This document shows, in pieces, positions 6,275 through 23,543 of a stretch of DNA of 64,000 bases. Positions within the stretch are counted from its first letter, which is position 1; every line of letters begins with the position of its first letter. The stretch comes from Lachnospiraceae bacterium KH1T2. GTDB taxonomy: Bacteria > Bacillota > Clostridia > Lachnospirales > Lachnospiraceae. The notes beneath the pieces were generated by a model. It saw only the letters and a program-made list of their open reading frames with translations, ran no database searches and had not been told where the DNA came from. The DNA lies in NCBI GenBank assembly GCA_900114405.1, contig FOSY01000001.1:124001-188000 (forward strand). The letters are read 5' to 3'. A program made the position numbers and the translations under genes.

Positions 6275-6541
6275 TTATGCTGATTCATTGATTTTCCTGT
6301 AGACCTTTTCTGCAAGGATATTTATTGAAATAGGCTCTGCCAGTTTCATTTCCTCGGTAAGCTCTATACCATAGCTTTCTTCACATGTTAGAAATAGCTG
6401 AACGATCGATATACTGTTAATCCCCAAATCTTCTACAAAAAGATCATCATCTGATATTTCTGAAATATTTTCATCCACCACTTCATTAAGTGTATCCCGG
6501 ATCTTCTTAGTGATATCCTCTAATCCTACTACTGCATTCAT
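6275..6541 (-). CDS. free-standing acyl carrier protein (cluster CP-3)
   Basis: An 88-residue carrier protein. The motif DLGINSISI presents Ser43 for the 4'-phosphopantetheine arm, and the surrounding four-helix pattern is normal. It is the last gene of the cluster and overlaps the upstream ANL ligase by ATGA, so the two are translationally coupled. The ligase probably loads this carrier. It is distinct in sequence from the two other carriers of the cluster. The acyl group carried is unknown. Confidence 0.88.
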   Translation of the reverse strand: MNAVVGLEDITKKIRDTLNEVVDENISEISDDDLFVEDLGINSISIVQLFLTCEESYGIELTEEMKLAEPISINILAEKVYRKINESA

Positions 6542-8103
6542 ACTGCTTTCCTCTCTTTCTTTACCGGCAGCTTCCTTACTGCATCTGCATTGGTGTTATA
6601 AAATTCCTTAATATAAAATCTTGCCGTCTCGCCTTTGCTTGTCACAGGCATTACTTTATCCGTAACGTAAACATTAGCCAGCCGTTTGTTCAGTGGAAGT
6701 TTTAAATTTGCCTCTACTATCTTTTCAAATATCGTTGTATCCTCAAAATCATCGCTTTCACTGCTGCTTATAAATAAAGTCGGGCGATCATCTATGCCTA
6801 CCGTAACAAACTGTGATACCATTCCTTCAAGAAATGAAAAATGCGAATCTAACTCCTCCGGGTATATATTTTCTCCATTATCACTGATTATCACACCCTT
6901 ATGCCTTCCCTTGAAATAAAGCCTTCCTGAATGTATTTCAGCCATATCACCACTTCTGAAGTATTCTTTTGGATTTCTGAATATTTCCTTACCTCTGTTA
7001 AGTGTTGACGAATACATCGATTTTCCATTAACTGCAAGTTCACCGTAGCCTTCACTCTTTTCCTCGCCCGTTTCAGGGTCTATTACTACAGCCGAATGGT
7101 TATTGTAAAATACTCCAACGTAATCCAAAGAAGGATCATCTGCGATAGCTCCCATTGTGACAAATGAAGTCTCTGTCATCCCCCAGCCATTTACTATATA
7201 TATTCCGGTATCTATAAGTTTCTTTGCAGTCGCAGCATCAAGCCTTGCACCGGAGCTGCATCCAAATGTGAGTTTTTCGCCCAAAAGTTTCTTCATTGCT
7301 TCTGGTTTACTGCTTCCAAAACGTTTATTTGCTATGCTGAGTATACCTTTCCATATGGCCGGAACAGAGCACAGAAACCATATGCCTCTATCTCTGCAAG
7401 TATCGATTATCCCGAAAATTCCGGGTTTTTGCGGCATCACGATTGGATAGCCTGCTGTAATAAATGCAAGCGTAACGCCGAAGCCAAGGCAATGTCTTAG
7501 CGGCAGGGTAAGGAGCATGGGATTTGCCTGCACTCCGCCTTCATTCCTCGTTCCTACTATTCCCTCATCATGCAGCAGACACTTTGACACATTTAAGCAC
7601 TGTGCATATATAGCATCTGCATAAAACACATAAACTTTTGCTCTGCCCGTAGTACCTGAAGTACAGAATGCTATCCTTGACTCCCATGAAACTTCCTTTA
7701 TTTCTCCAGCTTCAGCTTTCTCAAGCTCTTCCATAGTGACATTTACAAGCCCGGTATGATCTTCTGCCTTATCTGTAATAATGGCTCTCATATCTGCCTG
7801 CATGCGAAATGCCTCCACCTGCTCTTTACTAGCATTCGCATCGATCAAAAGCACAGGATAGCCTATCTTCAAAAGGCCAAAAAATACCGCAAACCAAAGA
7901 TAGTGATTATCACTTTTAAGACCTATCCACTTTCCCTTTTCTATTGAAGAAAGTTTTTTTTCAAGCTCTGATGCAGCTGCATCAACCATGCCTGCATAGC
8001 CCTTTCCGTCTACTGTAAATTCCTCTCCTGATCTAAACCATGTAAGCAGCTTCTTACCTTTGAAATTTTCTATAGTTATCCTGTAAACTTCACTGAAATC
8101 CAT
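6538..8103 (-). CDS. ANL-superfamily adenylate-forming ligase
   Basis: Activates a carboxylic acid as an acyl-adenylate and transfers it to a thiol, most likely on the coupled carrier protein. At 521 residues it has the P-loop motif TSGTTGRAK (148-156), GWGMTETS of the core domain, a YFRSGD motif and the C-terminal catalytic Lys near 490 in SKGETARF. It is divergent from typical acyl-CoA ligases and I cannot assign a substrate. No transmembrane or fused carrier domain is present. The gap to the KAS III-like gene upstream is 16 nt and GGGAG precedes the ATG. Confidence 0.85.
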   Translation of the reverse strand: MDFSEVYRITIENFKGKKLLTWFRSGEEFTVDGKGYAGMVDAAASELEKKLSSIEKGKWIGLKSDNHYLWFAVFFGLLKIGYPVLLIDANASKEQVEAFRMQADMRAIITDKAEDHTGLVNVTMEELEKAEAGEIKEVSWESRIAFCTSGTTGRAKVYVFYADAIYAQCLNVSKCLLHDEGIVGTRNEGGVQANPMLLTLPLRHCLGFGVTLAFITAGYPIVMPQKPGIFGIIDTCRDRGIWFLCSVPAIWKGILSIANKRFGSSKPEAMKKLLGEKLTFGCSSGARLDAATAKKLIDTGIYIVNGWGMTETSFVTMGAIADDPSLDYVGVFYNNHSAVVIDPETGEEKSEGYGELAVNGKSMYSSTLNRGKEIFRNPKEYFRSGDMAEIHSGRLYFKGRHKGVIISDNGENIYPEELDSHFSFLEGMVSQFVTVGIDDRPTLFISSSESDDFEDTTIFEKIVEANLKLPLNKRLANVYVTDKVMPVTSKGETARFYIKEFYNTNADAVRKLPVKKERKAV

Positions 8104-8119
8104 ATCAGCTCTCCCAATA

Positions 8120-9154
8120 TTAAAATGTAATTGACATTATGCCTTCACTTATGCCTACTCCAACGCTTACTGCAAAGGTTTTATAACCTTTTTTCACCAT
8201 TCCATTCTCTATAGCTTCATATGCAGCTATCGGTATGTTGCTTGAACCCACATTTCCAAACTTATCCACGACCGATACCATCTTTTTCACATATTCTTCA
8301 GGCTCTCCTCCAAGCTGTTCTGCAAAAAGATCTGACATGTTATAGACTACCCACCTTGCGACCTGAGTAGGAATTATGCAATCTGCATCTGCAAAAGTCA
8401 TGCCAAAGATGTCCTTAAGTTTTGGAAGTATTCCTTTATATATTCCAAGCTGTCTATCTGCAATTCCTTTCGTAGTTCCAGGAACATACAGCTTATCAGC
8501 GTCATGCGGATACATAACTCCGCCTCCCCATACTACATTGTGATTCCATGAATCAGAGTAAGTATGAAAATAAGATTTTTCGATACCGCAGCCCTCTTCG
8601 TCAGAACCTCTAAGCAAAAATGCTCCTCCGCCATCTCCCAGCGAAAGCGCTACAGGTGCTCTTTCCATAAGCTCAGCTTTATTGTCATAGTCAAATTTAG
8701 TCCAGCGCGAAAAAGCTTCTCCAGACACGACAAGGACTGTTTCCGCCTTACCTGTCTTTATAAGGCTATCCGCCACATCCACTCCATTCAGAAAAGCATT
8801 GCAGGCATTTTTGATGTCAAAAACAAATGCATTACGTACATTCATCTTGTCAGCAACTACGTTTGCGGTTGCCGGCTCTGCAAAATCCTGCGTAACAGAG
8901 CAAAAAATAAGTGCATCTATTTCAGAAGGCTCAACTCCCGCAATATTTAGTGCATCTAAGCCTGCTTTTGCAGCTATATCAGAGCAGTATTCCCCCTCTG
9001 CTGCATAATGCCTCTGCGCGCATCCCGTAAGCATCTTAGTAAGTCCCATCTTTACACCGAATTTCTTAAATCCGCATCTTTCCTCAAGCTCTTCTGAGGT
9101 AACTATTCTTTGAGGCATATATCTGCCGACACTTAATATATGAGTTTTCTTCAT
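8120..9154 (-). CDS. KAS III (FabH)-like enzyme lacking the catalytic His
   Basis: A 344-residue thiolase-fold protein of the FabH type. The nucleophile Cys118 is in KNACNAF and the Asn of the triad is kept at 301 (GNVGSSNIP). The His that normally follows IP (as in PHQAN) is replaced by Thr263 (IPTQVA). Decarboxylative condensation relies on the His/Asn pair, so ordinary fatty-acid initiation is unlikely. It may transfer an acyl group to an O or N nucleophile, or condense without decarboxylation (inference). The start at 9154 is preceded by AAAGGA; upstream codons would overlap the carrier gene. The gap to that gene is 11 nt. Confidence 0.85.
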   Translation of the reverse strand: MKKTHILSVGRYMPQRIVTSEELEERCGFKKFGVKMGLTKMLTGCAQRHYAAEGEYCSDIAAKAGLDALNIAGVEPSEIDALIFCSVTQDFAEPATANVVADKMNVRNAFVFDIKNACNAFLNGVDVADSLIKTGKAETVLVVSGEAFSRWTKFDYDNKAELMERAPVALSLGDGGGAFLLRGSDEEGCGIEKSYFHTYSDSWNHNVVWGGGVMYPHDADKLYVPGTTKGIADRQLGIYKGILPKLKDIFGMTFADADCIIPTQVARWVVYNMSDLFAEQLGGEPEEYVKKMVSVVDKFGNVGSSNIPIAAYEAIENGMVKKGYKTFAVSVGVGISEGIMSITF

Positions 9155-9165
9155 AACTTTTCCTT

Positions 9166-9405
9166 TCAGGCAGCAGTACAAGCCTTAATGATATTTTCTA
9201 TACCAATAACAGAGTCAAACTGTTCTATCTCTACATCCTCAAGCGGTATAGAAGTATTGAATGCCTCCTCAAATTCCGATATAAGACCTATTATGTCAAA
9301 AGAGTCCATAAATCCACCGGTTATAAGCTTAAGTCCTTCTGTGATCTCAACTTCTTCAAGCTCAGCAACATTTGCCTTTAAAATCTCAATTATCTTATCT
9401 CTCAT
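9166..9405 (-). CDS. free-standing acyl carrier protein (cluster CP-2)
   Basis: A 79-residue carrier protein. Ser35 in GFMDSFDII is the phosphopantetheine site. The acidic sequence and the FMDSFDII form resemble carriers used with standalone ligases (D-alanyl-carrier-like). It lies between the PP-loop enzyme, with which it overlaps by 11 nt, and the KAS III-like gene, and is a natural acceptor for the amino acid:carrier-protein ligase two genes upstream (inference). AAGGAG lies 7 nt before the ATG at 9405; a TTG one codon earlier is less likely. Confidence 0.87.
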   Translation of the reverse strand: MRDKIIEILKANVAELEEVEITEGLKLITGGFMDSFDIIGLISEFEEAFNTSIPLEDVEIEQFDSVIGIENIIKACTAA

Positions 9406-10435
9406 CAATTATCTCCTTAAGATCAAGTCCCATATTTTCTAAAACACCCTTAAGATCATCCTCTGTTATAGGTGTACTTATCAGCTTTATCGCATCATCC
9501 CTTTGCATTTCCTTTGAACGGATCAAATGGCTGAACTCTGTTTCATGCTGTGAATATCCAAACTGTTTCACTGCAAGATATTGTGACACATAGTTAAATG
9601 CACAGTTTGTAGAATGCGCAGGCCAGCTATTTTCAGGCAGTTTAAACTTAAGCTTTTCCTCTATCTCTTTGATTATCTTCTGTTCATCATATTTGATGTA
9701 CTTAAACGGCGATATCTGCACTATTCCACGATAATGCTTTGCCGAATAACCTATAGGATTTTCAAAAAGTTCCAGATACTTATTAAACCGGTCATCAGAT
9801 CTGATTATCTCAAGAGTATTTCTATCCGATTCCTCAAATATCCATGAAAGAGCATCATCTTTCAAATATGACTGGCCTTTCGTATATCCACCTAGTACAA
9901 GCCTTGTATCATATCGCAGGCACGTATCCTTTATTATTTTCTCCAAAAGAATGTGGCATACTCTGCAATAATATATGTGCTTTTTACTCTTTAGCATGGT
10001 TTCAAAAAGTGCGCTCATTTCCGATACTCTGTATGTAAGACTGTCTATCCCAAGTATCTGCACAGCATTTCGGATATTGCTATACATCTCAGGCAGAGCA
10101 AATCCATTGTCTATAAAAAGTGCCAATGGTCTAAGACCCATCTGACTTGCAATATAGAGCGTCATTATACTGTCTTTTCCTCCGGAAACAGCCACAATAC
10201 AATCATAATCACCACTGCCTTTGTAGCGTTCAAGTTTCTTCCTGAATATATCCCTTTTCTTTTCTGCCGGTATTTCCTCAAAAGTCTTACTGCTGTCAGT
10301 CTTCTTTTCCCCATTCTCATCTCGGCAAAATCTGCATACTCCCTCTTCGTCTAGTTCAATATGCCCTTTAACCTCCGGGATTATACACTTCCTGCATCTT
10401 CTGACATTGGCATCTATGAGTGATCTGCTAATCAT
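9395..10435 (-). CDS. PP-loop ATPase, amidotransferase/thiolation type
   Basis: A 346-residue enzyme of the adenine nucleotide alpha-hydrolase superfamily. The PP-loop SGGKDS is at 84-89. Two N-terminal CxxC pairs (Cys14/17 and Cys34/37) look like a zinc finger. A further CxxC (Cys157/160) plus Cys278 recalls the CxxC...C pattern that binds a 4Fe-4S cluster in tRNA thiolases such as TtuA and TtcA. The overall sequence also fits the N-acetyl-sugar amidotransferase (WbpG/PseA-like) family, which adenylates a carbonyl and replaces O by N. In this cluster it may convert a carrier-bound amide or carboxyl to an amidine or thioamide (inference). ATG at 10435 has GAGG upstream; it is 8 nt after the ligase gene. 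Confidence 0.8.
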   Translation of the reverse strand: MISRSLIDANVRRCRKCIIPEVKGHIELDEEGVCRFCRDENGEKKTDSSKTFEEIPAEKKRDIFRKKLERYKGSGDYDCIVAVSGGKDSIMTLYIASQMGLRPLALFIDNGFALPEMYSNIRNAVQILGIDSLTYRVSEMSALFETMLKSKKHIYYCRVCHILLEKIIKDTCLRYDTRLVLGGYTKGQSYLKDDALSWIFEESDRNTLEIIRSDDRFNKYLELFENPIGYSAKHYRGIVQISPFKYIKYDEQKIIKEIEEKLKFKLPENSWPAHSTNCAFNYVSQYLAVKQFGYSQHETEFSHLIRSKEMQRDDAIKLISTPITEDDLKGVLENMGLDLKEIIDER

Positions 10436-10443
10436 ATTTTTCC

Positions 10444-11640
10444 TCACAGTCTGCAATATTTATTTATCTCTTCATAAGTTTCTTTATCCCATTTAGACGT
10501 ATCAAGCCCCTTTTGTGAAAGCAGCGCATATGCAAGTCTTTCAATGCCGAAGGCAAAGCATGAAGTATGACAGTATGCACCTGATTCCTTAGTCTTGATG
10601 TCATAAACTTTTGTAAAATGTGTTCTATGGAAATTAGCTGAACTGCATGAAATATAGCTCTTGCTGCCAGGCACCAGCCACTTAAATTCACGCTTTGAAT
10701 CGCCTATAAGCTGAAACAGCTGTAATTTCTTATAATTACTTGCAAAGAAGGAGTCATTTGCAGTCTCAATCTTGCAGTTTAGCTTGAATTTATCAGCCCA
10801 GAAGCTCCACAGCGCACAGGCTCTCTCTATACAGCTTTTTGCCTGATCAGGTGTTCCGATGAAAACGTATTCTTTCATATAAAACTCATTAAGTCTCGAA
10901 AGCTCAGTAACATTTATGCCTTCATTTCTAAAGCACTTTCCAGAAACAAGAACGCACTTAGGCTCTGCACCTGCTATCCTTTTGCCTCTGAGCGACGGAT
11001 ACACAGGTACGCACGCTGCTGTTCTCATAACATTTTTAGGCGGTCTTATATTGGTAAAGAACGACTCGTCCTGAATTCCATTCTTTGAAAACTCATCGAT
11101 CACATCTATATCATTTTTCATTGTTGTCTGAAACATTATATGATGAGGGAAACTTTCGAAATACTTGCCCTCATTATAATCAGCGATCGGAGTAAGAGTT
11201 GGAACTTCCATTTCTATCTTCTCGTATTCCGGAAAGATAATATCCATCTGTTCTTCGATCTTTTTAGAAAAGTACTTAAAAACTTTAAGAAAAATGCCGC
11301 TATAAGCATATGCCCCGCTGCTTATCTCCCTTACGATCCCCTTATCAAGCATTTCCTCGAACACATCATCATTATTAAGCGTAGAGCACTCGGTATGGTC
11401 TTCCAATGTCTTAACCGCAACTTTGTCATCCATCTTGCTCAGCTTAACATTTATCATATCGACCAGCTTTTCCACACTTTCTCTGATGTGTGCCTCGTCA
11501 GTTCCCTCATACTCTATCTCAACCGCATCACTCAAGCACTTAATGTCTGTTATGCACTCAGAAATATATGAAAGCATATCAACAAAAAAATTTCTGTCGC
11601 TTTCACGAACATTTTCTAATTTATAGCAATATGTGCTCAT
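10444..11640 (-). CDS. amino acid:[carrier protein] ligase, SerRS-like
   Basis: A class II aminoacyl-tRNA-synthetase-fold enzyme of 398 residues. Motif 2 is FRNEG (237-241) and motif 3 GIER (365-368). Cys210, Glu257 and Cys361 match, with nearly the same spacing, the zinc ligands of the Bradyrhizobium amino acid:carrier-protein ligase and archaeal-type SerRS. There is no tRNA-binding coiled-coil arm, so it should charge the phosphopantetheine of a carrier rather than tRNA. Characterised members use glycine or alanine. An N-terminal part of about 100 residues is longer than in the Bradyrhizobium enzyme and may dock the carrier. The start at 11640 lies 1 nt past the previous stop; an ATG at 11652 is possible. 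Confidence 0.82.
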   Translation of the reverse strand: MSTYCYKLENVRESDRNFFVDMLSYISECITDIKCLSDAVEIEYEGTDEAHIRESVEKLVDMINVKLSKMDDKVAVKTLEDHTECSTLNNDDVFEEMLDKGIVREISSGAYAYSGIFLKVFKYFSKKIEEQMDIIFPEYEKIEMEVPTLTPIADYNEGKYFESFPHHIMFQTTMKNDIDVIDEFSKNGIQDESFFTNIRPPKNVMRTAACVPVYPSLRGKRIAGAEPKCVLVSGKCFRNEGINVTELSRLNEFYMKEYVFIGTPDQAKSCIERACALWSFWADKFKLNCKIETANDSFFASNYKKLQLFQLIGDSKREFKWLVPGSKSYISCSSANFHRTHFTKVYDIKTKESGAYCHTSCFAFGIERLAYALLSQKGLDTSKWDKETYEEINKYCRL

Positions 11641-11641
11641 C

Positions 11642-12517
11642 TTATCCAGCATCCTCCAAAACCTTTATATTTGTAAGTACGATATGTCTTCCACAATTAT
11701 TCTTTGTGATAATGATATTGTTATCCTCAATGCGGACCATATCTTTCTCTTCTCTCTGATTTTCTACAAATTTATATCTATCCCATATAAAAGTTGCAGA
11801 TCCTATCTTCAGTCTCGGTTCACTTAAAGTTTCAAGCTTGCCATAGTCCATCGCTCTGAGAAACGCCCCTATTTGACTCATATCCCACTTTTCATTTATA
11901 TAACCGTCATTCGGTATATCTTTTATCTTATGAAAGCCGCACTTTTTATTGATCTGCGTTACACACTCAAGTCTCTCATCAGCGATAAACTTATCCGCAA
12001 ATTTCTTAAAAGCCTCAAACGCTATATCAGTCTGCTTCTTCAAGAGTTTTAATGAAGTTATGGAACTATCAAGTGCTATCTTCCTCTGAACTATGATCTC
12101 ACCGCAGTCCACAGCTGTACTTATCCTATGCCATGTAATACCTGTATAGCTGTCCATTTCATATATTGCCCATGCTTCGGCGTTCATTCCTCTGTGGTAC
12201 GGAAGCAGCGCATTATGATAATTAATTCCATCAAAGTTTCTGTGCTCGACTATATCCTTTGGGAAAATATACGTATTTACCGCACTTATGACCTTAAGAC
12301 GATAATTTCTAAGGTCCTCTTTAAGTGCCTCTGTCATTTCTTCCGTATCAAAGCATCTATACTCGATATTTCTGCTCTTGCAAAGTTTCTCCACGAACCT
12401 GCTTCCAGATATCCTTTTTTCATATATAATCGCTTCATTTCCTCTTTCACGCAGATACACAGCTATATCCAAAGCAAGTTTTCCTGAACCTATGATAATG
12501 ATCTTTTTATCAGGCAT
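11642..12517 (-). CDS. formyltransferase (Fmt/GART-like)
   Basis: A 291-residue enzyme of the N10-formyltetrahydrofolate-dependent transferase fold. The N-terminal strand IIIIGSGKLA begins the Rossmann-like domain. The catalytic set is Asn99 and His101 (NYHNALLP) with Asp137 (VDCGEI). It is not the housekeeping Met-tRNA formyltransferase: it lacks that family's usual flanking genes (def, priA) and sits inside the biosynthetic operon. It probably formylates the amine of the aminoacyl group loaded by the next gene (inference). It is separated from the aryl-acid ligase by 4 nt. The C-terminal 90 residues are a divergent beta domain. Confidence 0.83.
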   Translation of the reverse strand: MPDKKIIIIGSGKLALDIAVYLRERGNEAIIYEKRISGSRFVEKLCKSRNIEYRCFDTEEMTEALKEDLRNYRLKVISAVNTYIFPKDIVEHRNFDGINYHNALLPYHRGMNAEAWAIYEMDSYTGITWHRISTAVDCGEIIVQRKIALDSSITSLKLLKKQTDIAFEAFKKFADKFIADERLECVTQINKKCGFHKIKDIPNDGYINEKWDMSQIGAFLRAMDYGKLETLSEPRLKIGSATFIWDRYKFVENQREEKDMVRIEDNNIIITKNNCGRHIVLTNIKVLEDAG

Positions 12518-12521
12518 GGCA

Positions 12522-14117
12522 TTACCCTCTTATATTTGCTATCTCACTAAGTTTTTTCCTGTCTATCTTACCTACTGCTGTATAAGGAAATTCATTTACT
12601 ATCTCAAACTGATCCGGAAGCTTGAACTCCGCTATCCCCTTTGATCTTAAGTATGTTCTGATTTCTTTAAGATCTGCGCTATGATCATTTACCTTTGCAA
12701 ATATACATATCCTCTGTATAAGCTCTTTATCTTCCGCAGGGACAACGTATGCCTCTTTTATCCATGAACACTCCATAAGATAATCCTCCAGTTCTGACGG
12801 CATAACTTTTTCACCCATGCGATTTATCTGCTCTGCTACTCTTCCCAAAACCTGAAGTTCTCCGGTATCAGGGTCTATCCTTCCCTTATCTCCTGTTTTA
12901 TAAAATCCATCGTCTGTAAATGATCTCTGATCTGCAGTCGGATTATTGAAATATCCCATAAAAACAGATGGTCCGCGTGTAGCTATCTGTCCAATAGCCC
13001 CATCCGGCATAACCTCATCATTTTCATCAAGAATTACGATCTTATCGCCTTCACATACAGGCTTGCCATGACATGTAAGAAGTTTCTGCATTTCTATACC
13101 TTTTTCAGTACCACACACAAGCCCTTCACTCATACCATATGCCTGCTGGATAATGCCTCCGAAGTGTTCTACAGCTTCTTCCAAAAACTTCTGTGTAGTC
13201 ATACTTCCGCCGACCTGCATATTTTTAAGACTGGAAAGATCAAAATCACCACAGAAATCCATTATCTGCATACATGACATGATCAATGACGGGACCAGAC
13301 CAGCATTTGTTATCTTGTACTTCTGTATCAGGTCAAGTATCTCATCCGACGTACCGTCATATCCAAGTACAACCTCTGCACCACTTAAGAGTGAACCAAA
13401 AAGCCCAGGCCCACATAGATTCCAAGCATGTGCGAGCGGCATTGCGACCAATACTCTGCTGCCTTCTTTAACACCAAACATTTCTGCGCATCCCTGCTGC
13501 TCATGCAGAAAGCTTGCATGAATCCTCGGTATAAGCTTTGGTATCCCGGTAGTTCCACCCGAAAGCACTAATATAGCGATATCATCAAAATGTGCTTCTG
13601 GCTTTGGGATATCTTCTTCACCATAGCTTTCAATATCAAGTTCTTCTATCTCATCCACAAACCAGAAATACTTAAGACCCTCATATTTCTTACGCATTTT
13701 CTCAGCAAGTTCAGAATACTCATATCCATGATATGAACGCACCACTATATACCCTTTTGCACCTGATGTTTCTATAATTGCCGAAACTTCTCTCTCCCTA
13801 TGTGCCGGCATTGCAAGCACCGGTATCACACCTAGCCTGAAAAATGCAAAGCAGATCTCAGCAAAGCTTATGGTATTTACATGCTGAAGGACTACCCTGT
13901 CTCCCTTTTTCAACCCATCTTTAGAAAAATAAGCCGCAAGTCTATTCGCTCTATCCTCAAGTTCTCTGAATGTGATGCTTCTCTCGCGATCAATGATCGC
14001 TGTCTTTTCACCGTTCTTTATCACCTGCTCATGCAGATAATCCGTATGTGTTTTCTTTATCCATAAGCCTTCTTCTGCATACTTTTCTGCAAGTTCCCTG
14101 CATACTTCTTTATTCAC
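12522..14117 (-). CDS. aryl-acid adenylating ligase (EntE/DhbE-like)
   Basis: Adenylates an aromatic acid and loads it on an aryl carrier. The 531-residue sequence is closest to 2,3-dihydroxybenzoate/salicylate ligases: GLWI near 17-20, LAMPAHRERE (101-110), P-loop SGGTTGIPK (186-194), catalytic Lys517 (GKIDRKK). The substrate loop reads HAWNLCGPG (230-238), where DhbE has HNYPLSSPG; the Asn that contacts the aryl acid is Ala and a specificity Ser is Gly. Another acid than dihydroxybenzoate is therefore likely (inference). No isochorismate genes are nearby. It starts with GTG after GAGGAGG and overlaps the carrier gene by 8 nt. Confidence 0.85.
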   Translation of the reverse strand: MNKEVCRELAEKYAEEGLWIKKTHTDYLHEQVIKNGEKTAIIDRERSITFRELEDRANRLAAYFSKDGLKKGDRVVLQHVNTISFAEICFAFFRLGVIPVLAMPAHREREVSAIIETSGAKGYIVVRSYHGYEYSELAEKMRKKYEGLKYFWFVDEIEELDIESYGEEDIPKPEAHFDDIAILVLSGGTTGIPKLIPRIHASFLHEQQGCAEMFGVKEGSRVLVAMPLAHAWNLCGPGLFGSLLSGAEVVLGYDGTSDEILDLIQKYKITNAGLVPSLIMSCMQIMDFCGDFDLSSLKNMQVGGSMTTQKFLEEAVEHFGGIIQQAYGMSEGLVCGTEKGIEMQKLLTCHGKPVCEGDKIVILDENDEVMPDGAIGQIATRGPSVFMGYFNNPTADQRSFTDDGFYKTGDKGRIDPDTGELQVLGRVAEQINRMGEKVMPSELEDYLMECSWIKEAYVVPAEDKELIQRICIFAKVNDHSADLKEIRTYLRSKGIAEFKLPDQFEIVNEFPYTAVGKIDRKKLSEIANIRG

Positions 14118-14367
14118 TCTGATATTCCTCCTCGTAAAGCGCGTTGCACATACCTGAAAGAGTAGGATTCTTAAAATAGATTTCCATCGGCACTTTATGT
14201 CCTAAAAGTTTTTCGCACATTATATTCATCATCCCGATCATTAATGAAGTCCCACCAAGGTCAAAGAAATTGTCATCATCTGCTATTGACTTAATATCGC
14301 CATTTTCAAATCTTAAAACTTTCTTCCATATCTCTCTGAGTTTCGATTCGATTTCAGCTCTGCTCAT
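14110..14367 (-). CDS. free-standing aryl/peptidyl carrier protein (cluster CP-1)
   Basis: An 85-residue carrier of the peptidyl/aryl type. FFDLGGTSL presents Ser41. It is the only one of the three carriers with the GGxSL signature of NRPS carriers. It overlaps both the thioesterase gene (14 nt) and the aryl-acid ligase gene, and is the obvious partner of that ligase. Start at 14367: AAGGAG lies 6 nt upstream, whereas the upstream codon at 14391 is buried in the thioesterase gene. Confidence 0.88.
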   Translation of the reverse strand: MSRAEIESKLREIWKKVLRFENGDIKSIADDDNFFDLGGTSLMIGMMNIMCEKLLGHKVPMEIYFKNPTLSGMCNALYEEEYQSE

Positions 14368-15214
14368 TTTTGACTCCTTCTGTATCCGCAACTATATTCA
14401 ATATCAAGTCCATATCATCGACGAGGCAAAAATGATCAAAAGGTATCTCATGATATGTCATTTCAAAATCCGTAAATTCCTGCCATTTTTTCCACTCATC
14501 ACCGATTATGTCGTCATCTCTTCCATATATCACTGTGACGGGCACAGGCAGCTTTTCTTTATCTGACCTGTCATTACAATAGCTGAGAAGTACTTTTTCA
14601 TCTTTTACATAGTTGCCGAAGTAATTATTCGCAAGCTCTACGATGTACTCTATGCTCTCAGCATCTACACCTTTAAGCCCTGCAAGCGCTTTATCATCAG
14701 TACTTACGTCTTCTATTACGCCTTTCCTGTCATATATGCTGTACAAAGCCTTCATGTATGCGCTGCAGACTTCCCTTTGTACTTTTTCATCCTTAAATAA
14801 AAAGCCGGGGAACATGTGATAAAACATCCTCTGAATCTCATTTCTAAGGCGACTGCATCCAAGTATCCTCTCTATTTCTTTATCAGGAGTTGGTGAATAT
14901 GAACCGCATACAAAAAGCCTTTCCGGCATATGAAAGCCTCTTTCCTTAAGCACTCTGCATGTTTCATATGCAGCCACAGCTCCAAAGCAATATCCAAATA
15001 TAAGATATGGCTCATCAGCAGATTTTTTCTCTATCACATCTGCCATAACCTCTGCTATCCCCCGCATACTTTCCTGCTCAGGCTTCTTGCTTAAGTACCC
15101 TCTTCCCGGTATATCCAGGTACTCAACCTTGATCTCTTCACCCAAAAGCTTCTGCCACTTGATAAACAAAATGCTCGTAGTGCCGCCTCCCGGCACGCAA
15201 TATAATCTTTTCAT
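14354..15214 (-). CDS. type II thioesterase with Cys nucleophile
   Basis: An alpha/beta-hydrolase of the GrsT-like thioesterase family, 286 residues. The N-terminal CVPGGGT and the PGRG loop are typical. The nucleophile elbow is GYCFGA (Cys76), where family members normally have Ser (GHSMGA). An Asp near 233 (GRDDD) and His261 (DHF) complete the triad. It could edit mis-loaded carriers or release the product; Cys in this position also occurs in some thioesterases that release strained lactones or lactams. It overlaps the exporter gene by ATGA. Confidence 0.85.
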   Translation of the reverse strand: MKRLYCVPGGGTTSILFIKWQKLLGEEIKVEYLDIPGRGYLSKKPEQESMRGIAEVMADVIEKKSADEPYLIFGYCFGAVAAYETCRVLKERGFHMPERLFVCGSYSPTPDKEIERILGCSRLRNEIQRMFYHMFPGFLFKDEKVQREVCSAYMKALYSIYDRKGVIEDVSTDDKALAGLKGVDAESIEYIVELANNYFGNYVKDEKVLLSYCNDRSDKEKLPVPVTVIYGRDDDIIGDEWKKWQEFTDFEMTYHEIPFDHFCLVDDMDLILNIVADTEGVKNEQS

Positions 15215-16587
15215 CCAATCTCTCCATTAAGTATGTGTTTCTCTGTGAATCTGTACCTGTGTATGATCAGCAATGCCAGAAGAAAAGAAAACATATCTGC
15301 CATTGGCTGCAGCATGTAAATTCCCTTTTTACCGCATATTGCAGGGAGAATAAAAAGCAATGGGATAAAAAAAATCCCCTGCCTTGAAACCGAAATTATA
15401 AGTGAATCCAGATATCTTCCTATGTTTTGCATATACATACTCGAAACTGCATAGTATGCAAGGAAAGGAAGTGACAGACATTGAAATTTTATAAGTAAGA
15501 TCCCGTCTTCAAGCACCTGACTGTCGCCTGAAAATACACCTATCAGCCTACCAGCCATGAAGAACATAACCAATGCCCCAAGTGCCATGAAGCATGAACC
15601 AATTATCACCGTAAGCCTAAAGGCTTTATCGACTCTGTCATATTTTTTTGCGCCATAATTCATGGCACATATTGGCTGAAAGCCCTGTGAAAAACCTATC
15701 ATCAGGAAGTAAATAAGCGCTGAAACCCTTGTCGCTATGGTCACGGCAGCGATCATACTCTCTCCATATACCGATACAGTTTTATTCAGAAGAACAGCTG
15801 CAATGCTTGTGATCGCCTGCCTTGAAAAGTTCGGAGCTCCGCCTGCCAAAATATGATAGATGTTTTCCCTCGAAAGCTTAAACCTCACAAGACTTACCTC
15901 TATATTTCCATGCTTGAAGCTTAATACCGTAAGAACTGCTGACGCGACGATCTCGCCTATCAATGTCGCTGCACCCGCGCCGATTATCCCCATTTTTAAG
16001 AAAATTATAAAAACAGGATCAAGTACGATATTTAGTAACATTCCCGATGCAAGTCCCAGCATTCCGTCTTTCACATTGCCGCAAAGGCGCATCTGATTAT
16101 ATAAAGTGACTCCATACAGCAGAAACGGTATCGCCGCTATCAAAATTTTCAGATAAGCAGTCGTATAATTACTTAAATCAGTGAAAACATTTCCTCCAAG
16201 TGCATTCACAAGCGGATTGATCAACCAATAGGAACACAGCATTATAGCCACGCCTGTCGCAATTGAAATGACCACTCCTGTAGATGATACCGTCTGAGCC
16301 TCTTTTTCCTTTTTTGCGCCAAGCCTGTTTGACATTACATTCCCGCTGCCATAGCCAAACCAGAAACCAACAGCCTGCATAAGCGAAAAGAACGAATAGG
16401 CGATTCCTATCGCTGCCGTCATGCTCTTATTATTCAGCCTTCCTATCCAAAATGTGTCTGTAAGGTTATAGATTATCGAGACAAGCATACCGATCATCGT
16501 GGGAATTGCTGTCTTTATCAAAAGCGGAAGGATCGGCTCGCTTATCATTCTAAGCCGTCTTTGCTCCTTTAAGTCACCCTCACGCAA
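15211..16587 (-). CDS. MATE-family efflux transporter
   Basis: A twelve-helix multidrug and toxic compound extrusion protein that exports small molecules using a Na+ or H+ gradient. The N-terminal PLLIKTAIPTMIG and YNLTDTFWIG segments are typical of Lachnospiraceae DinF/NorM-type members. I chose the TTG at 16587 (459 residues) because GGGGAGG lies 9 nt before it and the family usually has 10-15 residues before the first helix; the ATG at 16548 is the alternative. It overlaps the end of the dikinase gene by 8 nt. Its place in the cluster suggests export of the product. Confidence 0.88.
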   Translation of the reverse strand: MREGDLKEQRRLRMISEPILPLLIKTAIPTMIGMLVSIIYNLTDTFWIGRLNNKSMTAAIGIAYSFFSLMQAVGFWFGYGSGNVMSNRLGAKKEKEAQTVSSTGVVISIATGVAIMLCSYWLINPLVNALGGNVFTDLSNYTTAYLKILIAAIPFLLYGVTLYNQMRLCGNVKDGMLGLASGMLLNIVLDPVFIIFLKMGIIGAGAATLIGEIVASAVLTVLSFKHGNIEVSLVRFKLSRENIYHILAGGAPNFSRQAITSIAAVLLNKTVSVYGESMIAAVTIATRVSALIYFLMIGFSQGFQPICAMNYGAKKYDRVDKAFRLTVIIGSCFMALGALVMFFMAGRLIGVFSGDSQVLEDGILLIKFQCLSLPFLAYYAVSSMYMQNIGRYLDSLIISVSRQGIFFIPLLFILPAICGKKGIYMLQPMADMFSFLLALLIIHRYRFTEKHILNGEIG

Positions 16588-19048
16588 TCTTAGATACCTC
16601 CCCTTTCGAGCCGTCAACACGGATAGTATCCCCGTCATTAAATCTCTGCGTAGCATATCCAACACCCAAAACAGCCGGTATACCATACTCTCTGGCTACT
16701 ATGGCAGCATGAGAAAGTGAAGCCCCTGTATCTGCTACCACCGCTGATGCCATCTTAAAGAGCGGTGTCCACTCCGGGTCAGTATATTGGCACACCAGCA
16801 CATCACCCTGCTGCATCTTATAGAATTCCTTAGGCGAACGAATGACTTTTACCGTTCCCACGGCTTCACCCCTGCTTCCTCCAACTCCCTTAAGTACAGA
16901 GCCGGATTTACCAAACACGAGAAGTTTGCACCTTTGCCATATTTTCTCCGCAAGCGGTCTGTTAGCCTTTCGTCTATCTATCTTCTTCTGAAGCTCTGCG
17001 CTTATCACACCTTTATCTGCAGCACCTTTAAGCTCTGCATAAAACAGATAAGCCACGTTTTCTCTGAAATTTTCTGTTCCATACAGAAGTGATGAGATCC
17101 TCTTAAGCGCTTCTCTGGCATAGAAAAACGCACTTTCCCAATAGTACTGACTCTCTTCCCTCACCACATGGAAATATCTGAAATCATCTATATCCTGCTT
17201 AAGCTCTTCAAACTCACTCTCGCTGCAGACATCCTTTATCTTTCCCATAAGAGCTGCGAATTGATCCTCCTCTGGGCAGAAATTACCATTAAGCAGCGGG
17301 CGAACAATATTTAAGAGTCTGTCAGGCTCATCAATATATGACTTTGCCAGAATGCAATAACAGTTGAAGTCGGTCTTATAGCCGTTTTCTCTGAGAAAGC
17401 TTTCAAACTCCGGCTTTATCGAAGGATACTCTGCTATAAGCCTGTCATAGCTTATCCCATTCAAAATAGCATTTGTCATTTTTTCATCAGCTCTGATCTT
17501 TTTAGCGATGCTGACAATACTCTTTGAAATAACTGCTGTTCTGTAGTCAAGATTATTGTAGAAATCCTCTTCTGTAAGATTCTTATCAATCTTTGAAACT
17601 ACTTTCTTTATCTTTCCTTTGAAAAACGCACTTGGAAACAGTGCATATTTGAAACGATCGTATGAAAGAGCCGCTACATAATCGTGAATGTTGGTAAAAC
17701 TTTCAAATGCCTCTTTGAAAGTCATCTTAGAATAATCAGCATTAACAATGCTCTCCAACTCTCTCTTATGCTCAGCCATTCTTTTTGATATCACCCTCCG
17801 GCAATGAGGATAATTTTTAAGTTCTTTTACAAGTCCAGGGAATTTAAGTATCTCCCTGTGAAGTCTTTTTTTATCTTTAGGAAGGATCGTAATGCCCTCG
17901 TCATCTAACTGCGGCTGCATATAGAGCTCTATTCCGGCTTCCCTAAAGATCACTGACTTCTGCTCATTTACCGCTCCTACCATATAGTCATCAAGCGGAT
18001 AAAAAGCCTCCGGTATCTTCTCAAAAAGGAACTTCAGATTCTTTTTCATAACAGGGCTGCACTTGCATTTTTCCAGATAACTATTTATGACTTTATCATC
18101 GTCTGCCTCTTTCTCTGAAACTGTAGTTATAGCCCTTGCCTGCAATATATAAACTTTTCCTCCGGCAATTCCCCACTCTATATCCATCGGCATGCCGTAG
18201 TGCTTCTCTATCAGGCATCCCTGCATCACGAGCTTGCCAACCTCAGCACTTGTCAGGCAGTTTGCTTTTTGAAGCTCTTCGCTGACTTCGATTTCCTTTG
18301 TTCCCTTCTCATCATATATGATCTGCGTTTTTTTAGTACCGATCGAAATATTCTTTATGACGCCCGCCCTGTCACATGTATACGAATCTGCTGTAACTCT
18401 TCCGGATACTACACTCTCTCCGAGACCATATGAAGCATTTATCTGCATTTCATCATGTGAATTATTAAGCGGATTTACTGTAAAAAGGACACCTGCCTTT
18501 TCACTCTCCACCATTTCCTGTACTACAACTGCCAAAGCGACCTTGCTATGGTCATAGCCCTGATTCTCTCTATAGTACACAGCCCTTGTACCCCAAAGCG
18601 ATGCATAGCAGTTCTTTACCTGACGCAAAAGCTCTTCTGTACCTCTCACATTTAGATACGTTTCCTGCTGACCTGCAAAGCTTGCGTCAGGCAGGTCCTC
18701 TGCTGTAGCTGATGATCTGACAGCTACTCTTGCATTATCGCCTAAATCTCTATAGCTCTCCACGATCTTTTCTGCCAGTTCTTCCGGAAATGATGCTTCC
18801 TTTATTTTTTCCCTAATACTCTTAGCTGACTCTGTAAGCTTTACAAGGTCGCCTGCGGCATTCTCCAATGATTCTTCTATGAAGCTTTCAAGTCCATTGC
18901 TCTTAATAAAAGATCTGTATGCATCACTGAGAACCACAAACCCACGCGGAATCAAAAATCCCGCAGATGTCATTTCCCCAAGATTCGCGCCTTTGCCTCC
19001 TGCAGATTCGACATCTTCTTTCCTAATCTCACTAAAATCCTTTATCAT
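16580..19048 (-). CDS. PEP-synthase-like phosphotransferase (RPH-like)
   Basis: An 822-residue protein with three parts: an ATP-grasp domain (about 1-320, GGKGANLGEM at 17-26, then RSSATAEDLP), a central alpha-helical part (about 330-730) and a swivelling phosphohistidine domain ending in GASLSHAAIVARE with His780. The C-terminal PEP/pyruvate barrel of true PEP synthases is absent. This layout is that of rifampin phosphotransferase, which moves the beta-phosphate of ATP to an antibiotic. It may phosphorylate the cluster product or an intermediate for self-protection or tailoring (inference). It is the first gene of the operon, with GGGGTG before the ATG. Confidence 0.82.
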   Translation of the reverse strand: MIKDFSEIRKEDVESAGGKGANLGEMTSAGFLIPRGFVVLSDAYRSFIKSNGLESFIEESLENAAGDLVKLTESAKSIREKIKEASFPEELAEKIVESYRDLGDNARVAVRSSATAEDLPDASFAGQQETYLNVRGTEELLRQVKNCYASLWGTRAVYYRENQGYDHSKVALAVVVQEMVESEKAGVLFTVNPLNNSHDEMQINASYGLGESVVSGRVTADSYTCDRAGVIKNISIGTKKTQIIYDEKGTKEIEVSEELQKANCLTSAEVGKLVMQGCLIEKHYGMPMDIEWGIAGGKVYILQARAITTVSEKEADDDKVINSYLEKCKCSPVMKKNLKFLFEKIPEAFYPLDDYMVGAVNEQKSVIFREAGIELYMQPQLDDEGITILPKDKKRLHREILKFPGLVKELKNYPHCRRVISKRMAEHKRELESIVNADYSKMTFKEAFESFTNIHDYVAALSYDRFKYALFPSAFFKGKIKKVVSKIDKNLTEEDFYNNLDYRTAVISKSIVSIAKKIRADEKMTNAILNGISYDRLIAEYPSIKPEFESFLRENGYKTDFNCYCILAKSYIDEPDRLLNIVRPLLNGNFCPEEDQFAALMGKIKDVCSESEFEELKQDIDDFRYFHVVREESQYYWESAFFYAREALKRISSLLYGTENFRENVAYLFYAELKGAADKGVISAELQKKIDRRKANRPLAEKIWQRCKLLVFGKSGSVLKGVGGSRGEAVGTVKVIRSPKEFYKMQQGDVLVCQYTDPEWTPLFKMASAVVADTGASLSHAAIVAREYGIPAVLGVGYATQRFNDGDTIRVDGSKGEVSKIA

Positions 19049-21740: not shown

Positions 21741-22562
21741 TTAATTATATTTATATTCATATTTCATGGACAACTTTGTAGGATTATCACGAATATCATC
21801 TATTTTGAATAGCTTTGTTTCAATAATTTTATTAACATTATCTTTTTTCTGCACAAAATCATAATCTTCCTTACCACATGTGAGCAAATATTCATCATCT
21901 ATCTTACTAACTACATAATAATCTTCATTTTTCCTTTCATCATGTATAATGACATGTTCTGTATATTTTTTTGAATATTCGTCCATAAAATAATATATAT
22001 AAGCAGCAAAAGCCGCCAAAATAACTACCCAAAAAACAAATACTTGAATATTTTGTGTCAACTTATCTTGAACAGCATTCAACTTATCTTGAACAGCATT
22101 TGTATTTGACTGCGTATCATTATCTTTTGTGAGATTAAATACAATTACAAATAAACAATCACCAACTGCACATATTAAAATTGGAATAAAGCTATTATTC
22201 TTTTTTAACTTCACACAAATTATAATTACTACACAAACTAATACTACAAAGGCCAATATACCGATTCCTTTAGCAAAATCAATTGGCAAACACGCTAATT
22301 CATATACAGCAAATACATTAAAAATAGCCAAAATAAAAAAAAGAGCCAAATAAGCTAAAGGCCTTTGCACTCTATAAATGCTTCGCTTCTTAGACAGAAA
22401 ATAACCCGCCTGTCCAATTCCCCTATTCTTAAGAACAAAGTAAATTGCCAAGTAAAATACGATTGGCAATATAATAAAAATTTTATTTCCAAATAGTTCT
22501 ATAGATAGTTCTATAGATCGTTCTATAAATAGTTTTATTAAGTCAACAACACATTCTTTCAT
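21741..22562 (-). CDS. membrane protein of unknown function
   Basis: A 273-residue protein that I do not recognise. An amphipathic, repeat-encoded N-terminus (IERSIELSIEL) leads into about five hydrophobic helices, a short direct repeat (NAVQDKL twice), another helix and a soluble C-terminal part of about 75 residues rich in Asp/Lys/Tyr. The start at 22562 follows GAGAGGAAT. The terminal codons run into an AT-rich stretch beyond which an out-of-frame coiled coil continues. It stands alone in its region and has lower GC than its neighbours, which may indicate acquired DNA. Confidence 0.65.
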   Translation of the reverse strand: MKECVVDLIKLFIERSIELSIELFGNKIFIILPIVFYLAIYFVLKNRGIGQAGYFLSKKRSIYRVQRPLAYLALFFILAIFNVFAVYELACLPIDFAKGIGILAFVVLVCVVIIICVKLKKNNSFIPILICAVGDCLFVIVFNLTKDNDTQSNTNAVQDKLNAVQDKLTQNIQVFVFWVVILAAFAAYIYYFMDEYSKKYTEHVIIHDERKNEDYYVVSKIDDEYLLTCGKEDYDFVQKKDNVNKIIETKLFKIDDIRDNPTKLSMKYEYKYN

Positions 22563-22599
22563 TTTTAGATTCCTCTCACGCTTAATTATAATAAAATTC

Positions 22600-22632
22600 A
22601 AATCTCATCCTGTAATGCTTAACATGAGATTT
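22600..22632 (-). terminator. candidate terminator
   Basis: A 9-bp stem (AAATCTCAT and complement) with a 15-nt loop is followed on the minus strand by GAATTTTATT. It lies 110 nt after the four-helix membrane protein gene. Confidence 0.5.
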
Positions 22633-22743
22633 GCGTCAGCATGGTTGCCATATTTTATATACAAATCACTGTGCATCCTTGCTAAGCGTTTTACCTCTGT
22701 CACAGATTGTAACCTTAACTGAGATAAAACATTCTCATATGAC

Positions 22744-23256
22744 TTACCCAGCTGATACGGATGCTGACTTCGATATTGATTTTATGAAAATAACAACTAA
22801 AACTACATAATCGATCAACGGTACAAAAGAAAGTGCACCGAATATGATTGTCTTGATCAAAGAAATACGATGTGCTCTCCACATTTTATAGCAGGCTACT
22901 GCCTCCGTAATGGAAGTCGCAAAATGTGTAAATCCTATTATGATCCAGGTTACTATCGTAAATAGAAATCCCATTGGAAAGCAGAGCATGAGCATACCTC
23001 CGCCAAACAAAACCAGTATCGGATATATCTGTGGAATTTTTACCAGCATTGAGATTTTCACGGCAGTTTTTTCATCATAATCAGGCGAAATGATAAGCCT
23101 TATAAGCCCTATAATGTAAGTTACTGCTGTAAAAAGAGTCAGAATTATGCCAACTGCAATTCCTAAACTTTGCATGTCTGAATCTAATATTATTGTCAAC
23201 GTGTGTAAGATATAGAAATACAGTGCTATAGGTAAGAATAATAGATATTTTTTCAT
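22744..23256 (-). CDS. small polytopic membrane protein
   Basis: A 170-residue hydrophobic protein with four predicted transmembrane helices and a short basic tail. I do not recognise a named family with certainty. The ATG at 23256 is preceded by GGAGAG; an upstream frame start at 23268 is less well placed. It is transcribed alone, divergent from the MerR regulator, and could be its target, although no pairing evidence beyond adjacency is visible. Confidence 0.65.
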   Translation of the reverse strand: MKKYLLFLPIALYFYILHTLTIILDSDMQSLGIAVGIILTLFTAVTYIIGLIRLIISPDYDEKTAVKISMLVKIPQIYPILVLFGGGMLMLCFPMGFLFTIVTWIIIGFTHFATSITEAVACYKMWRAHRISLIKTIIFGALSFVPLIDYVVLVVIFIKSISKSASVSAG

Positions 23257-23543
23257 ACAACTCTCCATTCCGTTGGTGGTATGATGAATTATGATAAATT
23301 TCCCGCTTTAAGAATCTGTGTTGCTTAACACGCGCGTAGAAATGTTTAAACCCCAACGAAATTTAATTTTATCATAAACACACAAAAATTCGATACATTT
23401 AGCAATTTTTATTCTGTATACATTAATTACTGTTAAAAAAGCCTTTTTGCTCTAAAAAAAGTTCTGATTTACCCTCTCTCTATTTGGCTCGAATATTATA
23501 TAATTAATTTATCTATTAACGGCTTGTTTTAAGAGGATAGCGT

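Follow-up and report, generated by a model that had tools for sequence, protein, structure and literature searches.

A twelve-gene operon with three free-standing carrier proteins

The window analyzed here is a stretch of 64,000 nucleotides from contig FOSY01000001.1 of Lachnospiraceae bacterium KH1T2. At positions 6275-19048 it harbors twelve open reading frames (ORFs), all on the minus strand, which we labeled A (at the 19048 end) to L (at the 6275 end) and which a first-pass annotation had described as a small thiotemplate pathway on free-standing carrier proteins, lacking a nonribosomal peptide synthetase (NRPS). The coordinates, the common direction and the predicted classes of the twelve genes were borne out by the ORF positions and by matches to Pfam and NCBIfam, which comprise PPDK_N with PEP-utilizers, MatE, Thioesterase, PP-binding (twice), AMP-binding (twice), Formyl_trans_N, tRNA-synt_2b with the amino acid--[ACP] ligase family, PAPS_reduct with WbuX, and ACP_syn_III. 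The third, 80-residue carrier had no Pfam match at 0.001 and matched the DltC/ACP models of NCBIfam below their cut-offs. Based on refined starts, neighboring genes of the operon overlap or sit at most 16 bases apart.

A scan of 20 proteins encoded within the cluster and next to it revealed neither condensation nor modular ketosynthase domains, and NRPS queries from two relatives matched gene E as the sole gene within the window. The proposed absence of NRPS genes is borne out within the window, whereas NRPS genes do occur in the family of related clusters. In the genome of the window, condensation domains were located at three places, all on other contigs (G000:C53:8844-10211, C56:51184-52344 and C46:19135-20058), one of them in an open frame of 1238 amino acids.

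Gene H encodes a putative thioamide synthetase

Gene H (9395..10435, minus strand) encodes a PP-loop (AANH) enzyme, which we regard as a candidate carrier-dependent thioamide synthetase homologous to CtaC from the biosynthesis of the antibiotic closthioamide. According to the accessible part of the original report, CtaC is an iron-sulfur (Fe-S) AANH enzyme that thioamidates carrier-bound substrates only, and alanine changes of D77 or S78 abolished its activity, those of C154, C157 or C284 diminished it (PMC6772006). A protein of 355 amino acids in genome G496 carries these five residues at the exact published numbers and served as CtaC candidate; with H it shares 26% identity across its residues 7-340, at E 4e-18 in a database of 13 proteins. 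The neighbor of the candidate gene is presumably aminotransferase-like. In the alignment, C154, C157 and C284 of CtaC coincide with C164, C167 and C285 of H (353-amino acid numbering from 10456), and this Cys triad is invariant in 15 of 15 H proteins, as are the SGGKDS motif and the tetracysteine C21/C24/C41/C44. The CxxC of H also aligned with that of TtuA PH0300 in a profile search.

The Cys triad is absent from seven aligned amidotransferase-type relatives, which include three proteins above the WbuX cut-off (L043-L045) and four retrieved by the H profile, without a WbuX score (L059-L062); it is also present in L054-L056, L063 and L068. This comparison was made without L046-L048, L051, L052, L057 and L058, which the PP-loop string filter had missed; the row of L064 comes from another reading frame, and L065-L067 as well as L070-L073 did not enter the alignment. 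When 391 genomes of the class were searched with the H profile, 11 matched at 1e-20, with 583 bits for the window's own protein and 160 bits for the next. Since only the former is cassette-like by its score, H-like proteins occur in other settings too.

Over its whole length, H has its best NCBIfam match in TIGR03573 (WbuX), with 152 bits below the curated cut-off of 203.2 bits. The best fold match of the predicted model (pLDDT 85.2) is 8wex, the N-acetyl sugar amidotransferase (NASAT) of Legionella, with a Z score of 21.2 and an rmsd of 4.4 over 300 aligned residues. Matches to argininosuccinate synthase (Z 13.0) and to the nitrile synthetase ArtA (Z 12.0) were put down to the shared PP-loop fold. 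From the features that can be tested on the sequence we conclude that H probably works in the manner of CtaC, which strengthens the comparison with closthioamide drawn in the first-pass annotation.

Further CtaC-like sequences were observed in G496, presumably the genome of the closthioamide producer. A protein of 2142 amino acids (L077:5829-12257, plus strand) combines an AMP-binding domain (residues 1157-1451), a CtaC/H-like PP-loop stretch (1456-1785, 19% identity to H) and a carrier (1866-1930), and thus apparently has a CtaC-like domain built into an NRPS module. A second CtaC-like gene (L075:7946-9052, minus strand, and L082) lies between very large NRPS-like genes and outscores CtaC in the comparison with H.

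Amino acid loading and N-acylation by genes G and F

Gene G (10444..11640, minus strand, start 11640 with a Shine-Dalgarno-like sequence) encodes an amino acid:[carrier protein] ligase related to type-2 seryl-tRNA synthetases (SerRS), with the Bll0957 family as its match in the PDB (E 3e-25). Its putative Zn ligands (Cys/Glu/Cys), which we assume to bind zinc, align with those of Bll0957 and of type-2 SerRS. In the CFAFG motif, G has an Ala where type-2 SerRS have Gly; the same Ala is found in Bll0957, which we take to charge Gly, and in 20 of 20 G proteins. This provides a lead towards Gly or Ala as substrate, and a role of G as Ser ligase became less probable in view of the pocket Ala. With the Bll0957-type ligases, G shares the catalytic core, the putative Zn ligands and the pocket Ala; it differs from them in being about 60 residues longer on its N-terminal side, in a stretch that aligns with type-2 SerRS, and in being embedded in a biosynthetic operon. 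Two genes downstream lies the carrier gene I (9166..9405, minus strand), which encodes a DltC-like protein of 80 amino acids with a DSF motif.

Gene F (11642..12517, minus strand) encodes a formyltransferase of 291 amino acids (Formyl_trans_N 2e-15), in which the N-x-H motif and the Asp are kept. Asn, His and Asp are the catalytic residues of formyltransferases, and the motifs INYHN and D-x-G are conserved in all nine F proteins aligned. The 15 H-bearing clusters contain F in six cases, an acetyltransferase of the GNAT family in seven, both in none and neither in two (L023 and L025). The formyltransferase and the acetyltransferase thus replace each other.

Enzymes for acyl activation, transfer, release and export

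Gene J (8120..9154, minus strand) encodes a homologue of 3-ketoacyl-ACP synthase III (KAS III, FabH), with which it shares the fold, the nucleophilic Cys (Cys127 in the 353-amino acid numbering) and Asn310. It differs from the Cys-His-Asn triad of decarboxylating KAS III in having Thr272 at the position of the catalytic His. Cys and Asn are present in 17 of 17 full-length J proteins and Thr or Ser replaces His in 14 of the 17, His being found only in L029-L031; the J protein of L024 (173 amino acids, N-terminal half missing, with Thr) was left out of the alignment. The KAS III family includes acyltransferase members, e.g. CerJ and PqsC.

Gene C (14354..15214, minus strand) encodes a stand-alone thioesterase of 286 amino acids (Pfam Thioesterase 3e-23). 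The first-pass annotation had assigned it to the type II thioesterases, which does not agree with its sequence: the nucleophile of the GYCFG motif is Cys, and the Ser of the GxSxG motif of editing type II enzymes is absent. G-x-C-x-G is found in five of five sequences, i.e. in C itself and in its nearest relatives from L016, L018, L026 and L034, and enzymes with GHSMG or GHSFG share the cluster with the Cys type in L016, L018, L026 and L034. Since Cys-thioesterases are known to form strained rings, the Cys nucleophile suggests that C could be the joining step, and C may hence join as well as release.

The annotation of gene E (12522..14117, minus strand, 531 amino acids) as an aryl-type ligase stands insofar as its nearest solved sequence is DhbE (1md9, E 8e-107) and it resembles 2,3-dihydroxybenzoate (DHB)- and salicylate-AMP ligases of the ANL superfamily. 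Its pocket, however, departs from that of the 2-hydroxyaryl ligases (HAWNLCGPG vs HNYPLSSPG of DhbE), with Ala-Trp where these keep Asn-Tyr/Phe. The Asn at DhbE position 235, which we take to be the hallmark of 2,3-DHB- and salicylate-AMP ligases, is Ala in the window and in L016; it is Asn in seven of seven type II relatives (L021-L026 and L034; see below). The first-pass reading of a small thiotemplate pathway on separate carriers, with an aryl-type ligase and a formyltransferase, is supported. The adjacent gene D (14110..14367, minus strand; start 14367 with a Shine-Dalgarno-like sequence) encodes the first carrier protein (GGTSL, PP-binding 6e-13), a candidate aryl carrier. The second, divergent ANL ligase, gene K (6538..8103, minus strand), retains TSGTTG and has GE in place of the usual GK of the A10 motif, and gene L (6275..6541, minus strand) encodes the third carrier (GINSI, PP-binding 3e-7).

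Gene B (15211..16686, minus strand) encodes a MATE-family exporter (Pfam MatE 2e-48, TIGR00797 above cut-off) of 491 amino acids as listed, the true start probably being located further in. Gene A (16580..19048, minus strand) encodes an RPH/PEP-synthase-like dikinase of 822 amino acids with PPDK_N, presumably the only ATP-grasp-fold domain among the twelve proteins, and a mobile domain with SHAAIVARE. Tblastn at 1e-4 detected no counterpart of A in the 19 related loci described below, which places it outside the conserved core; of the genomes of these loci, 18 of 19 contain some RPH-like match, the best with 52% in the N-terminal part (G362) and the rest short or weak. The operon contains no phosphopantetheinyl transferase (PPTase), L016, L017 and L024 carry their own, and the single PPTase-family match in the genome of the window, a frame of 199 amino acids, could activate the carriers.

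Both flanks of the operon are ordinary. On one side lie genes for a GGDEF protein, a protein of the glycine transporter family, a GH32 enzyme and a GDP-mannose 4,6-dehydratase; the other side has a gene for a methyl-accepting chemotaxis protein, encoded on the opposite strand. A scan for consensus promoters and terminators came out near chance (38 vs 34.9, standard deviation 6.4; 10 vs 7.3, standard deviation 3.6). Elsewhere in the window, at 21741-23268 (minus strand), two adjacent ORFs of 286 and 174 amino acids lie in a stretch of low G+C content, with either a very weak DUF6057 match below cut-off or no Pfam match.

Distribution and conservation of the cassette

Matches to gene G were found in seven of 299 genomes sampled from the family, of which only three are close (the window's own, G131 and G007). 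Within the genus, one of 48 genomes has a match, namely the window's own; 22 of the 48 are within the limits set here for completeness and contamination. A species-genome collection was scanned with an alignment of three G proteins, based on two short patterns, which gave at least 19 loci; the G matches L012-L015, with 23-36% identity and other gene contexts, were left out. The loci belong to Oscillospiraceae including Ruminococcus, Lachnospiraceae, Eubacterium, an unclassified member of the Clostridiales, Peptoniphilus and one metagenome-assembled genome (MAG) named Alistipes, i.e. nearly all to Firmicutes, and include the named strains [Eubacterium] cellulosolvens LD2006, Lachnospira pectinoschiza M83 and Peptoniphilus lacydonensis EL1. 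These taxa are groups of anaerobes, which would fit the needs of an oxygen-labile Fe-S enzyme. A search with gene G gave no cassette in viral contigs; in plasmid records it gave 94 matches, all below 60% identity, the best among the 30 listed (30.2%) being general amino acid:carrier ligases.

The loci were fetched with G alone, and 14 of the 19 also hold H and carrier gene I beside it, so that the co-occurrence goes beyond chance. Carrier gene I directly follows H in all 15 H-bearing clusters including the window, and G directly precedes H in 14 of them, the exception being L033 with J in between. The first-pass annotation had named a scattered occurrence with unrelated partners as an argument against a common pathway; instead, the order F-G-H-I-J-K-L is kept in six of six clusters with both F and H, and the single deviation is a thioesterase gene inserted between J and K in L016. 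The closest relative of G (72%) is from an uncultured Ruminococcus, i.e. from another family, and families are intermixed in the G tree; together with the single occurrence among the 48 genomes of the genus, this points to a horizontal spread of the cassette. In the 'Alistipes' MAG (L019), nominally of the Bacteroidota, the cassette nests among those of Ruminococcus, and the MAG is probably misbinned.

Clusters of type I (window and L016-L020) contain F-G-H-I-J-K-L in this order, with export genes of the ABC/FtsX type in L016-L020 and MATE in the window; L016 additionally shares C (62%), D (43%) and E (64%) with the window. Type II clusters (L021-L026, L034 and the fragment L028) combine G-H-I with J, L, K, E, an NRPS and ABC transporters with or without energy-coupling factor (ECF)-type genes. 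Exceptions are K, which was not found in L024, GNAT, which is present everywhere but in L023 and L025, and transporters, which were not seen in the fragment L028. The Peptoniphilus locus L033 has the order GNAT-G-J-H-I-K-L with ABC and ECF genes, and neither NRPS nor E was found in the DNA examined. Type III (L029-L032) contains G and J with an ANL fusion, a 320-residue protein and ABC/FtsX, and F lies beside G in L029-L031; no H was found in the DNA examined, L032 being cut by the contig end. L027 starts 464 bases before G at a contig end, with no further cassette gene visible, and L019, L020 and L028 are likewise cut by contig ends. Gene L adjoins K in L016-L020, L021-L023, L025 and L033, and J in L024, L026 and L034. 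Pfam matches bore out condensation-domain NRPS genes in L017, L022 and L024 (= L010), and NRPS relatives were found by tblastn in L021, L023, L025, L026, L028 and L034 and partly in L020. A fused pair of ABC proteins and Trep_Strep- and CbiQ-type ECF genes lie beside the cassette in L021-L025 and L033; L026 has ABC and a CbiQ-type gene only, and L034 the ABC pair only.

Within these loci, we also observed a nitroreductase-family gene (L017:712-1683, minus strand) beside a two-module NRPS that is divergent from the type I cassette, and a hydrophobic, transporter-like protein of 469 amino acids that opens two clusters (L016:1990-3399 and L026:4082-5470), the copy of L016 without Pfam match. The H-less relatives encode a family of 320-331 amino acids (L029:4353-5315, L030:3408-4394, L031:6018-6986 and L032:4411-5406) with invariant QCNMA, NFKGSQG, CRH and YFQH motifs; the two members tested (L029/L011 and L032) had no Pfam match, and the predicted fold of the 320-residue protein (pLDDT 75.6) gave no Foldseek match at E <= 0.001.

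Proposed pathway and alternatives

Taken together, we consider it reasonably probable that the operon encodes an NRPS-free thiotemplate route which makes and exports a small, thioamide-containing specialized metabolite. We infer the substrates, the incorporation of sulfur, the order of the steps and the product from the gene content as follows. G would charge a small amino acid, most likely Gly or Ala, onto carrier I, and F would formylate an amine, which GNAT would acetylate instead in the relatives. H, as a CtaC-type [4Fe-4S] PP-loop enzyme, would adenylate a carrier-bound amide, presumably the N-formyl amide, and exchange its oxygen for sulfur. L would receive a further acyl group through K, and D an aryl-type acid through E; the KAS III homologue J, which lacks the His, would hand over an acyl group bound to its Cys to a nucleophile that sits on the following carrier. 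Joining or cyclization of the intermediates, by which aryl acid and amino acid might be united, and release of the product would then fall to the Cys-thioesterase C, and export to B. A could catalyze an ATP-dependent final coupling or serve the self-protection of the host. The strongest link of this chain is the putative role of H as thioamide synthetase with carrier I, since the two genes are adjacent in all H-bearing clusters; the weakest links concern the identity of the thiolated amide, the group transferred by J and the function of A.

Several observations weigh against this pathway. Whole-length score and fold place H nearest to the sugar amidotransferases, and the fold matches to LarE, NcsA and TtuA reach Z scores of only about 11. 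L049, a WbuX-like protein below the cut-off, has a CxxC and a later Cys, so that within the comparison made here the triad extends beyond thiotemplate clusters. There is no sulfur-supply gene among the twelve, which according to the accessible part of the report applies to the closthioamide cluster likewise (PMC6772006). The exchange of formyl- and acetyltransferase represents few independent events, with three label changes on the G tree. F is present without H in L029-L031, and the J protein of L032 has Thr though its 7.9-kb contig lacks H. In L023 and L025, H is accompanied by neither F nor GNAT in the DNA examined, so that the target of H need not be an N-formyl or N-acetyl amide. Finally, genes A and B are not common to the window and its nearest relative L016.

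The resemblance of H to the N-acetyl sugar amidotransferases (WbuX/WbpG/LpNASAT, TIGR03573), which extends from the best family and fold matches to the PP-loop and the Zn tetracysteine, would also suit an amidotransferase that converts the N-formyl or N-acetyl amide with ammonia to a formamidine or acetamidine, as WbpG and WbuX do on acetamido sugars, the product then being an amidine. We judge this unlikely: H scores below the family cut-off and sits among carriers instead of sugar genes, no glutaminase was recognized among the 20 proteins scanned, and the CtaC-type triad, in which Cys-to-Ala changes diminished CtaC activity in the accessible part of that report (PMC6772006), is absent from the seven amidotransferase-type proteins aligned, with L049 as the mentioned case of a triad below the cut-off. 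It was the Cys triad and the comparison with CtaC that lowered the amidine reading of H. A metal-binding product, i.e. a siderophore or copper ligand, appears doubtful and was rated lower for the window in view of the lack of uptake genes and the pocket of E. It would explain the ABC pairs, with or without ECF-type genes, beside the cassette in L021-L026, L033 and L034, which by gene content, their sequences not having been compared, may recall the transporters of equibactin as far as these are described in the accessible text (PMC3672683). The operon of the window, in turn, has a MATE exporter and no uptake genes, E has Ala-Trp in place of Asn-Tyr/Phe, and no metal-dependent regulator was found among the 20 proteins scanned.

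Another possibility, which we regard as quite improbable, is C-acylation of an N-formyl- or N-acetyl-glycyl-S-carrier by J with ring closure by H, which would yield a thiazole with sulfur or an oxazole without it. The pocket Ala of G indicates a Gly/Ala-type ligase, J would be unable to make a second amide there if the sole amine were taken by F, the decarboxylase His is missing from J, and the nitroreductase-family gene beside the NRPS of L017 is possibly a ring-oxidizing partner. J may, however, simply form amides or esters, L023 and L025 lack F and GNAT, and we know of no KAS III that C-acylates such a carrier-bound glycyl unit. The specific version, in which F, G, H and I build an N-thioformyl (N-thioacetyl in GNAT clusters) glycyl-S-carrier, J acylates its alpha carbon and the thioamide sulfur closes onto the ketone to give 5-substituted thiazole-4-carboxyl units, is a long shot. 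If true, it would represent a thiazole route that starts from glycine, one-carbon units and inorganic sulfur and dispenses with cysteine, a heterocyclization domain and YcaO, and a plug-in block for NRPS-free and NRPS pathways alike. Least of all do we expect a modification of the cell envelope by DltABCD-like aminoacylation with extra genes and no secreted metabolite. Carrier I is DltC-like and D-alanylation of teichoic acids also loads a small amino acid on a carrier, but none of the twelve proteins matched a family of the DltB/MBOAT or DltD type, and specialized metabolism suits the presence of three carriers, of an exporter and of a CtaC homologue as well as the scattered occurrence of G (one of 48 genomes of the genus).

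Relation to known systems and significance

The preferred thioamide pathway is of a kind that is already known from closthioamide, with which carrier-bound thioamide formation was first reconstituted in 2019 (PMC6772006). As far as the accessible text describes the cta cluster of Ruminiclostridium cellulolyticum, both systems are NRPS-independent thiotemplate pathways of an anaerobe with separate carriers, an ANL-type aryl ligase and an Fe-S PP-loop enzyme of the CtaC type that has this Cys triad (PMC6772006). The window differs in loading the amino acid by a SerRS-like ligase, where cta uses the ATP-grasp enzyme CtaD, and in adding a formyltransferase, a KAS III-like enzyme, a second ANL ligase, a third carrier, a Cys-thioesterase and an RPH-like dikinase. 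No family corresponding to the ATP-grasp beta-alanine loader, the peptidyl transferase CtaG, the transglutaminase CtaJ or CtaA matched any of the twelve. Judged by sequence, what appears new compared to closthioamide are the amino acid loader, the N-acylation, the acyl transfer and the release. In the same text, 100 CtaC homologues were retrieved, about 75% of them near thiotemplate genes and mostly in anaerobes (PMC6772006), and some of the clusters described here may fall within this set.

Equibactin and yersiniabactin resemble the relatives of the cassette, and not the window, in having an aryl ligase, an NRPS, a fused ABC pair and importer-type genes; the accessible part of the equibactin report describes the importer EqbHIJ and the YbtPQ-like EqbKL (PMC3672683). 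The operon of the window has neither NRPS nor uptake genes, and no G-, H- or J-type gene is mentioned for eqb in this part of the report. Equibactin was therefore rejected as a twin and retained as a transporter analogy only. Word searches of the open literature, outside of which most subscription papers lie, gave no title or abstract describing this gene set.

The operon would raise the questions of whether CtaC relatives act on formyl and acetyl amides, which role a His-less KAS III plays, and whether gut anaerobes produce thioamide antibiotics or metal ligands. It belongs to a compact and portable cassette around a CtaC homologue that is spread over Lachnospiraceae, Oscillospiraceae, Eubacterium and Peptoniphilus.

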